DNA of 42,952 nt from Terriglobia bacterium. Lineage in GTDB: Bacteria; Acidobacteriota; Terriglobia; UBA7540. The translations under genes were made by a program, and so were the position numbers. The stretch covers positions 1-42,952 of the forward strand of contig JAIQGH010000031.1 of NCBI GenBank assembly GCA_020072655.1, given 5' to 3'. This document shows, in pieces, positions 1 to 2,360 of the stretch (position 1 is the first letter of the stretch; every line of letters starts with the position of its first letter). A model generated the notes under the pieces. That model saw only the letters and a program-made list of their open reading frames with translations, was not told the DNA's origin and ran no database searches.

Positions 1-672
1 ATAGTATTCATCGGCCCGAAAGGCCAGGATTCTTTCTCCCTGAGAAGCGAGACGCAGATAGCAAGTGATGATCGAGAAAGCGCCTTCTTCCGTCATCATC
101 GACAGCAGTCGCGGAGAAATAACGTGGATGCCGGAAAAGGCCAGCGCCTGAACCTGCTGCAAAGGTTGGACCAATTCAGTTTGATCGCTACCCGAACGCC
201 TGCCACAAAGCTGCTGCCTTTCGTCGAAGAGCAAGTACCGGGAGGTTTTTCGGTCTTTCACCGCCAGGGTGGCGAGAGCCTGGTTCGCGGAATGAAATCG
301 CACCATGCGGGGCAGATCGATGGTGCTGATGACATCGACATTGTGCACAATGAAAGGCTCTTCAAGACCGCCGGAATCCTCAAGAAAAAAATGAGCAGCT
401 TTTTTCAGGCCGCCGCCGGTATCAAGCAGAACTTCCTCGCGGGAGATGACAATCCGCATGCCAAAGTCATCGTTGGTTTGCAGATATTGGACGATCATAT
501 CCGCAAAGTGATGCACGTTGATGATCACCTCGCGAATTCCAAAGGAGCGCAAGCGAGAGAGGGTGATCTCCAGGAGCGTGCGGCCAGCGACTTCCACCAG
601 CGCCTTGGGGCGCTGGTCGGTGAGTGGTCGCAAACGCGTGCCGAGGCCGGCGGCCAAAATCATCGCTTTCAT
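1..672 (-). CDS. MurU-like sugar-1-phosphate nucleotidyltransferase (3' end outside window)
   Basis: The frame is open from the ATG at 672-670 to the window edge, giving 224 codons with no stop. The N-terminus has the nucleotidyltransferase signature LAAGLGTRLRPLT followed by RPKALVEVAG, the nucleotide-binding loop of the GlmU/RmlA/MurU superfamily. Further motifs are the metal-binding HNVDV and an RKTSRYLLFD segment. In the MurU subgroup the enzyme transfers UMP to N-acetylmuramate alpha-1-phosphate during peptidoglycan sugar recycling. The ATG overlaps the stop of the preceding kinase gene (ATGA), so the two are probably translationally coupled. The kinase-MurU pairing resembles the AmgK-MurU salvage route, which is the reason for preferring MurU over a mannose-1-phosphate guanylyltransferase. 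The substrate cannot be proven from sequence alone. Confidence 0.85.
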   Translation of the reverse strand, partial: MKAMILAAGLGTRLRPLTDQRPKALVEVAGRTLLEITLSRLRSFGIREVIINVHHFADMIVQYLQTNDDFGMRIVISREEVLLDTGGGLKKAAHFFLEDSGGLEEPFIVHNVDVISTIDLPRMVRFHSANQALATLAVKDRKTSRYLLFDERQQLCGRRSGSDQTELVQPLQQVQALAFSGIHVISPRLLSMMTEEGAFSIITCYLRLASQGERILAFRADEYY

Positions 673-2105
673 TTGCCCAAGCTCTCCAGCTCAAGATGCC
701 GCACCACGACCTCCACCCCGTCCCGGCCGCGCAGATGTTTTGCTAATTGCTCCGCCAGATAGACCGAGCGGTGCTGGCCCCCCGTGCAACCGAACGACAC
801 CATCAAGCTCTTGAAGCCGCGCGCCTGATAATTGCAGACGCTGGCATCCACCAGCGACAAGGCGCTGGCCAGAAACTGATGCACGCTCTCGTGCTGATTG
901 AGGTAATCGATCACCGGCGCGTCTTTGCCCGTGAAAGGCTGGAAACGCTCTTCGCGTCCGGGGTTGGGGAGGCTGCGGCAGTCGAAGACGAATCCGCCGC
1001 CATGCCCCGCCTCGTCTTCCGGCAGGCCGCGGCGAAATGAAAAACTGTAAATCCGGACGACCAGCTTATCGGCTTCCGTCGTCAAGGCCTGCAATTTCTC
1101 CGAGGCCACCATGCTTCGGAAGGCGTCCATGAGCACCGGCAGCGCGATGGGCAACTCGACGTGCTCAAGGAGCCAGCGCAAGTTTTTCAGCGCGTAGGGC
1201 ACGCTTTGCAGGAAATGAACTCTGCGCTCGTAGAAGCCGCGAAAGCCGTACGCGCCCAACGCCTGCATGATGCGGACGTAAACGTAGCCGTAGTAGTGCT
1301 GCATGAAGACTTCGCGCTCGAGCTGGATGAAATCGGCCAGCCTCTCAAGGTAATGATCGAGCAGTTGCTGGCGCAACTCCGGCGGCAGGTCGGCCTTGGC
1401 ATCGTACAAAAGGGAGGCGATATCGTATTGCAGCGCTCCTTTCCGGCCGCCTTGGTAATCCAAGAAGAAGGGGCAGCCGTCGCGCAACATGACGTTGCGT
1501 GACTGGAAATCACGATAGAGAAAGTAGTCGCGATTGGCGCTCAACAAGAATCTGGTCAGACGGGCGAAATCGTCTTCGAGCGCTTGCTCGCTGAAAGGAA
1601 TGCCCGCGAGCCTGAGAAAGTAGTACTTGAAGTAATTCAAATCCCAAGCGATGGACTGGCGATCGAAGCTGGCACGCGGATAGCACACCCGGTAATTCAG
1701 ATTGCGGCCCGCTTCGATCTGAAAGCGTGGCAACCAGGCCACAACTTGGCGATAGGTTTCCAGCACTTGGGGAGCAATGTTCTCGCCGATACGATTCTTC
1801 GACAGAAACTCAAAAAGGGTTGTGTCCCCCAGGTCTTCTTCGAGGTAAGCGCCGTGGCTCAAGTCATCCGCGTAAATTTCCGGCACCGGCAGACCCTGCC
1901 GACGAAAGTGCCTGGAGAATTCGAGGAAAGCGGCGTTCTCTTCGCGGACGCCATAGAGAACACCAATCGCGCTGAGATTTTCGCTGGCCAGCCGGATGAT
2001 ATTCCGCCCCGAGCCGCCGAGCTGGCCCTGCAGCGGCTGCATCCGCACGGCCGGTGAGTGGAAATGCTGCTCAAAGAGCTTCTTGAGAACGTCCATGCCC
2101 GTCAT
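669..2105 (-). CDS. Aminosugar kinase-like phosphotransferase fused to a RapZ C-terminal domain
   Basis: This is a protein of about 478 aa with two domains. Residues 1 to about 330 are an APH/AmgK-like (COG3178-type) phosphotransferase. The catalytic loop reads YRDFQSRNVM and the metal-binding segment FFLDYQGG, followed by YDIASLLYDA. Residues from about 350 to the end match the RapZ C-terminal domain: SFSFRRGLP, FDCRSLPNPG and GCTGGQHRSVYLAEQLA, the last being the family signature. The RapZ N-terminal P-loop NTPase is absent. AmgK phosphorylates MurNAc/GlcNAc at C1. The RapZ C-terminal domain senses glucosamine-6-phosphate and binds the GlmY/GlmZ RNAs in enterobacteria. The start is uncertain: a TTG at 2111, the ATG at 2105 and an ATG at 2096 are in frame, and no strong RBS precedes any of them. 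The stop overlaps the MurU-like start. Confidence 0.85.
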   Translation of the reverse strand: MTGMDVLKKLFEQHFHSPAVRMQPLQGQLGGSGRNIIRLASENLSAIGVLYGVREENAAFLEFSRHFRRQGLPVPEIYADDLSHGAYLEEDLGDTTLFEFLSKNRIGENIAPQVLETYRQVVAWLPRFQIEAGRNLNYRVCYPRASFDRQSIAWDLNYFKYYFLRLAGIPFSEQALEDDFARLTRFLLSANRDYFLYRDFQSRNVMLRDGCPFFLDYQGGRKGALQYDIASLLYDAKADLPPELRQQLLDHYLERLADFIQLEREVFMQHYYGYVYVRIMQALGAYGFRGFYERRVHFLQSVPYALKNLRWLLEHVELPIALPVLMDAFRSMVASEKLQALTTEADKLVVRIYSFSFRRGLPEDEAGHGGGFVFDCRSLPNPGREERFQPFTGKDAPVIDYLNQHESVHQFLASALSLVDASVCNYQARGFKSLMVSFGCTGGQHRSVYLAEQLAKHLRGRDGVEVVVRHLELESLGK

Positions 2106-2360
2106 TGCCAACGCCGCAGTCCGGACGGATCACTGACATTGATTGCCTTCGAGCATCTCAGTTGAGATTTGGCTGGCGGTGCGCTTCAACGGAACCATCG
2201 GGCCGGCAAAGAACGTTTCCGGTCTCAGATTGAACCAGCCCGGCCGGATATTTGAATCGATAGGTCCATCTCGTGAAAAGCTCAGCTATGACGCGGGCCT
2301 GCGTGCCGCCGGCCACCACAAAGATACCATCGAACGCGCGACCCAAGAACCGAAAGGTCG

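Follow-up and report, generated by a model that had tools for sequence, protein, structure and literature searches.

The window, i.e. the whole stretch of DNA analysed (42,952 nucleotides), is contig C203 of a soil Terriglobia (Acidobacteriota) MAG of 4.36 Mb in 209 contigs. At its beginning, on the reverse strand, lie two overlapping genes: the first encodes an AmgK-like kinase of the APH family joined to the C-terminal domain of RapZ (RapZ_C), and the second a MurU-like nucleotidyltransferase (Table 1). An alternative start codon of the fusion gene, TTG at 2111, gives an open frame of 480 aa at 669-2111(-). The fusion protein matches Pfam APH with an E-value of 4.7e-14 and PF22740 with 5.9e-36 (123.7 bits, gathering cut-off 27 bits), and the Pfam domain search found no P-loop NTPase domain of RapZ in it. 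The AlphaFold2 model has a pLDDT of 84.9 for the whole chain and of 91.7 for the RapZ_C domain alone; it resembles 3csv, a protein of APH fold, with Z 24.5, and its RapZ_C part matches the E. coli RapZ-CTD 5o5s with Z 19-20, an rmsd of 1.5-1.6 and 42% identity. As the original prediction had it, the C-terminal segment is thus a RapZ_C domain without the RapZ NTPase. The RapZ profile NF003828 scores 116.7 bits and covers profile positions 141-277 only, and its cut-off of 244 is not reached. An ordinary RapZ is encoded separately in the same genome (C3:3480, open frame of 332 aa), and ordinary RapZ was found in all ten genomes checked.

Table 1. Features of the kinase-RapZ_C fusion gene and its MurU-like partner in the window
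Feature	Position	Strand	Remark
APH-RapZ_C fusion CDS	669..2105	(-)	478 aa from ATG 2105; stop 669-671
AmgK-like APH kinase domain, residues 1-335	1101..2105	(-)	Pfam APH; AmgK profiles below cut-off; 3csv Z 24.5
Kinase catalytic loop Y197-R-D199-F-Q-S-R-N204	1494..1517	(-)	(nearly) invariant in Acidobacteriota and Bacteroidales; aligns with HRDFHSRN of Acinetobacter AmgK
Metal-binding D216 in DYQGGR (AmgK: DFQDA)	1443..1460	(-)	alignment
RapZ C-terminal domain PF22740, residues 349-473	687..1061	(-)	Pfam; model vs 5o5s Z 20
Fusion-specific loop D364xxGxGGG371, inserted vs RapZ (DAD)	993..1016	(-)	in every fusion, absent from RapZ panel
NPG[R/K] 381-384; G383 at RapZ pocket position H190	954..965	(-)	glycine throughout the fusions, H, Y or N in RapZ; pocket residues from PMC5737377
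Phosphate-binding loop C440-T-G-G-Q-H-R446-S447 = CX5R(S) = RapZ C247 to S254	765..788	(-)	(nearly) invariant in fusions and RapZ panel
ATGA stop/start overlap, fusion/murU	669..672	(-)	shared by 50 of the 80 loci compared
MurU-like nucleotidyltransferase, 3'-truncated at contig start	1..672	(-)	MurU = best family

The partner gene is truncated at its 3' end, since the window begins at the contig start. Against the MurU profile NF045761 the truncated window ORF scores 132 bits and the full relative in locus L003 scores 145 bits, both short of the cut-off of 250. Moreover, bases 1-585 of the window are identical to those of another MAG (L026), and the identity drops abruptly to about 82% across the remaining operon, while contig C71 of the window's genome (G000:C71, L002) closes with a further 3' piece of murU, which shares 87% identity with the nearest relatives. 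For these reasons the contig end is probably chimeric, with bases 1-585 coming from another strain, and the murU of this genome probably continues on C71. The chimeric end touches the murU sequence and not the operon structure, since the gene order is backed by independent loci.

A search for the APH + RapZ_C architecture across genomes, which the original prediction had proposed, recovered it in 80 Acidobacteriota loci and in Bacteroidales with murU adjoining. Scanning species genomes brought up 310 relatives. In all 80 Acidobacteriota loci compared among these, murU lies immediately 3' of the fusion, with the same 4-base overlap in 50, and the arrangement is thus no oddity of the window; murU adjoins the fusion in loci from other Acidobacteriota lineages as well. 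In a class sample of 151 genomes about 39 have the gene (38 by the kinase profile, plus G355, where it is truncated at a contig end), with a patchy spread over several families, and in a larger sample the kinase gene is present in 98 of 399 genomes. In two genomes (G341:C587, locus L136, and G432:C139) a frame break splits the kinase-RapZ_C gene, by sequencing error or by decay. Outside Acidobacteriota, where the survey covered plasmid records and scaffolds of a phage collection that resemble host DNA, full-length fusions with 37-46% identity occur in records of Parabacteroides, Phocaeicola, Bacteroides and Prevotella. The nucleotidyltransferase gene murU adjoins the fusion in seven of eight Bacteroidales records; the exception is Prevotella sp. 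299, whose murU is at another place on the replicon that has the fusion. A fusion arising by chance or made by assembly is ruled out by the 80 loci together with the second phylum. A scan of viral contigs gave no match. Four unverified faecal scaffolds labelled 'Bacteriophage sp.' (L130-L133: MT839161, MT836462, MT837446, MT837443) bear a Bacteroidales fusion with murU and are probably host chromosome; a contig of 3.4 kb entered as Candidatus Paceibacterota (L011, JARLIE010000041.1) carries an Acidobacteriota-type operon at 82% identity and is probably mis-binned.

The fusion architecture is already present in the databases, under the name of RapZ. In fact, NCBI calls the Parabacteroides and Bacteroides fusions 'RNase adapter RapZ' (L105, WP_005858754.1; L108, WP_237923178.1), although the first of these reaches only 105.6 bits against the RapZ profile with its cut-off of 244. 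Such Bacteroidales proteins, of which WP_005858754.1 is an example, have the identical architecture, about 44-46% full-length identity and an adjoining murU, but they belong to another phylum and are named by one of their two domains.

The kinase part is AmgK-like, as had been proposed: the catalytic D199 and N204 and the metal-binding D216 are all kept, the APH fold is recovered in the model, and the sequence can be aligned to proteobacterial AmgK over its length. The pair thereby resembles the AmgK-MurU system of Pseudomonas and Caulobacter, in which an APH-fold anomeric kinase is likewise followed by a MurU-type nucleotidyltransferase, but it differs by the extra RapZ_C domain, by low scores (56.2 and 44.1 bits for the kinase against the AmgK profiles NF045698 and NF045759, cut-offs 500 and 550; 145 bits against 250 for MurU, as above), and by changed substrate-side motifs. 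Among the 151 class genomes no stand-alone AmgK was found, and all 38 matches to the AmgK profiles are this kinase. The scores far below both cut-offs, and the changes of DFQDA to D[YF]QGGR and of the EMxLLTDW region to DLNYFKY in the kinase and of the NGDVW region to NVDVI/NVDIL in the MurU-like partner, would suit a pair acting on a sugar other than MurNAc, for example GlcNAc alone or a sugar of capsule or LPS. We regard this as unlikely, for the gene neighbours and the AnmK/MurQ pattern described below point to MurNAc, and AmgK and MurU serve MurNAc use in the Bacteroidales member T. forsythia (PMC7670621), though its AmgK may be other than the fusion.

The neighbours are those of cell-wall sugar metabolism. 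MurQ, the MurNAc-6-P etherase, is beside the fusion in 13 of the 80 loci, in 12 of these divergently upstream, an adjacency limited to some lineages; MurA is beside it in 11 loci, divergently upstream in some relatives; and nine loci have, near the operon, a protein in which GH3 is joined to a PBP4B-like serine hydrolase. This last fusion, of a GH3 beta-N-acetylhexosaminidase-like and a PBP4B-like part (L055 7874-10888(-), L006, L050 and L064), recalls a joined NagZ-AmiE pair. At the genome level, all seven genomes of genus g187 (family f86), one of them a single contig, have the fusion and AnmK and lack MurQ, and the kinase-MurU pair is therefore the only recognised MurNAc route predicted in this genus. 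The window's own genome has both AnmK and MurQ. AnmK is absent from all sampled genomes of family f83 (G298, G305, G311, G318, G324, G330, G336, G342, G347, G352 and G357), most of which have the kinase; the co-occurrence with AnmK thus fails as proof of an anhMurNAc route, since nine f83 genomes have the kinase without AnmK, and the entry of MurNAc must differ in this family. Fisher tests associate the fusion with missing MurQ (p 0.007) and with missing AnmK (p 0.015), values which are confounded by phylogeny and are of descriptive use. Taken with the MurQ, MurA and GH3/PBP4B neighbours, the AnmK/MurQ pattern makes genome context support N-acetylmuramate as the probable salvaged sugar, and so supports the role in cell-wall sugar salvage assigned by the original prediction.

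Turning to the RapZ_C domain, the phosphate-binding loop has the consensus GCTGG[QKR]HRS and is flanked by two signatures private to the fusions of both phyla, DxxG[NH]GGG and NPG[RK]. In E. coli RapZ (YhbJ/YvcJ), the GlcN6P-sensing RNase adapter, the pocket consists of H190, T248, G249, H252 and R253 with C247 nearby, and sulphate or malonate has been seen bound in it (PMC5737377, PMC7073468, PMC9841335); GlcN6P binds the RapZ-CTD with a KD of 10 nM (PMC7073468). Four of the five pocket residues are kept in the fusions (T441, G442, H445 and R446), and C440, corresponding to C247, is strictly conserved; the fifth, H190, is replaced by the invariant glycine and a Gly-rich loop is inserted. As to this position, the ordinary RapZ of the window's genome (L083, C3:3480-3836) has N there (NPNY) and other RapZ proteins have H or Y, so it varies within RapZ. 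The fusions differ from RapZ also in having neither the NTPase half nor the basic C-terminal RNA-binding tail, which in RapZ is restricted to Enterobacteriaceae (PMC7073468); the window's protein ends in HLELESLGK, and because the basic tail is absent RNA binding by the fusion is unlikely from its sequence.

In an unrooted tree the RapZ domains and the fused RapZ_C domains separate into two clades; the fused ones, from both phyla together, make up one of these (100/99), and a long branch divides it from RapZ. A recent capture of RapZ_C from the co-resident RapZ is ruled out by this single clade on its long stem. From the private signatures and the long-branched clade, fused RapZ_C is seen in the alignments as an old and distinct subfamily with a changed pocket, and not as a recent graft. 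On an unrooted tree of this shape the ancestral metabolic role offered by the original prediction is a conjecture.

One genome has lost the domain. In G305 the kinase gene has no RapZ_C part: it stops directly behind the linker, in an ATGA overlap with murU, and the kinase motifs and murU are intact. In the kinase tree this protein is nested among the fusions, with 90/90 support together with the Acidobacteriota kinases and 99/98 when Bacteroidales are included, and the phylogeny therefore points to RapZ_C having been lost in G305. Since the kinase is retained there, RapZ_C is dispensable for keeping the kinase gene. This is the sole clean loss among 98 kinase-bearing genomes and a single event; the other apparent cases turned out to be contig ends or contig splits (G560, G351, G578, G355), or genes split by the frame breaks already mentioned (G341, G432). 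G305 has ordinary RapZ but neither AnmK nor MurQ, and among the kinase-bearing members of the 151-genome sample it is alone in missing the two; by gene content the loss thus coincides with the absence of enzymes that make or use MurNAc-6-P. The conserved loop and the G305 pattern would fit a RapZ_C domain that handles MurNAc-6-P, either as a sensor or as a phosphatase.

In Pseudomonas the step from MurNAc-6-P to MurNAc is performed by MupP. If RapZ_C were a cysteine-dependent sugar-6-phosphate phosphatase of the CX5R kind, converting MurNAc-6-P to MurNAc and feeding the attached 1-kinase, then one polypeptide would strip the C6 phosphate and afterwards add the C1 phosphate. The MupP and AmgK steps would be joined in the fusion only on this condition, and we claim no homology to MupP, which is a separate phosphoglycolate-phosphatase-like enzyme (PMC13046382). 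The CX5R(S) loop, essentially invariant in fusions and RapZ panel, sits in the AlphaFold2 domain model between a strand (93-100) and a helix (106-119). Both C247A and C247S of E. coli RapZ are inactive, a catalytic SH being suggested by the authors, and the density seen in the CTD with GlcN6P likely belongs to a product of chemical conversion (PMC9841335). The genome with the sole clean RapZ_C loss has neither AnmK nor MurQ, and AnmK-positive, MurQ-negative lineages would need a MurNAc-6-P phosphatase for the kinase-MurU route. Against this, the structural indication is a motif, the PDB matches listed for the models include no fold of a cysteine phosphatase, the loss is one event, and we found no published phosphatase activity of RapZ. 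We consider such an activity rather improbable, though the strongest competitor to the regulatory reading given below. Somewhat more doubtful is the wider proposal that RapZ_C constitutes a novel family of sugar-6-phosphate phosphatases that depend on a cysteine, with a CX5R loop in a phosphofructokinase-like fold, which would perform the MupP step in cis to an AmgK-type 1-kinase and whose same chemistry would lie behind the GlcN6P sensing of RapZ.

The domain might also be a mere dimerisation or scaffold module that joins two kinases, or the kinase and MurU. The isolated RapZ-CTD dimerises (PMC5737377), the translational coupling to murU is tight, and the domain is dispensable in G305; however, strict conservation is found largely in the pocket (T441, G442, G443, H445 and R446) and in the fusion-specific loops, which a scaffold does not need, and we think this the least probable of the explanations weighed here.

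On the observed domain content, gene coupling, conservation, pocket loop and genome context, our preferred reading, held with a little less than even confidence, is that the operon is a salvage module of the AmgK-MurU type in which RapZ_C is a built-in aminosugar-6-phosphate regulator of the kinase. For the substrate, the ligand and the direction of regulation we infer the following scheme. The kinase would phosphorylate N-acetylmuramate, perhaps GlcNAc too, at C1, and the MurU-like enzyme would convert the 1-phosphate to the UDP-sugar, bypassing MurA/MurB. The RapZ_C pocket would bind an aminosugar 6-phosphate, i.e. GlcN6P, GlcNAc6P or MurNAc6P, candidates that the competing MurQ route makes or consumes; the bound ligand would adjust the kinase activity, probably inside a CTD-mediated dimer, and the sensor would balance re-use through kinase and MurU against breakdown through MurQ. 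The direct gating by an aminosugar phosphate suggested in the original prediction seems plausible in this respect. The loss of RapZ_C in G305, with kinase and murU retained, is what is expected of an accessory domain of a salvage module. On the other side, the equivalog cut-offs of AmgK, MurU and RapZ are all missed, and the presence is patchy. Moreover, with H190 replaced and a loop inserted, the ligand may differ from GlcN6P; the strict conservation of C440 seems to exceed what a simple sensor needs; and ordinary RapZ already gives the cell one sensor of such type. The regulatory reading stands somewhat ahead of the phosphatase, by a small difference, because GlcN6P binding by RapZ_C has been published and phosphatase activity has not.

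In the open-access literature we found no paper on RapZ joined to AmgK or to an aminoglycoside-phosphotransferase, and the AmgK-MurU route here appears, within that literature, to be a previously undescribed variant in which the part played by RapZ_C is putative. Many Acidobacteriota and gut Bacteroidales have retained this pair under the database label 'RapZ', which has probably concealed a recycling enzyme that is regulated or works in two steps. This naming problem, kinases being called 'RNase adapter RapZ', means that salvage kinases may escape surveys of Bacteroidales. If the phosphatase reading were true, the fusion would unite the steps of MupP and AmgK, and the domain dropped by G305 would be one left without substrate. 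Altogether one polypeptide and MurU make up a small, testable system for the ligand of the pocket and for a possible cysteine catalysis. Work on the RapZ CTD has so far dealt for the most part with RNA binding and GlcN6P sensing in E. coli, and the widespread, separately conserved form of this CTD on a salvage kinase suggests that the domain also does RNA-free work in amino-sugar metabolism.
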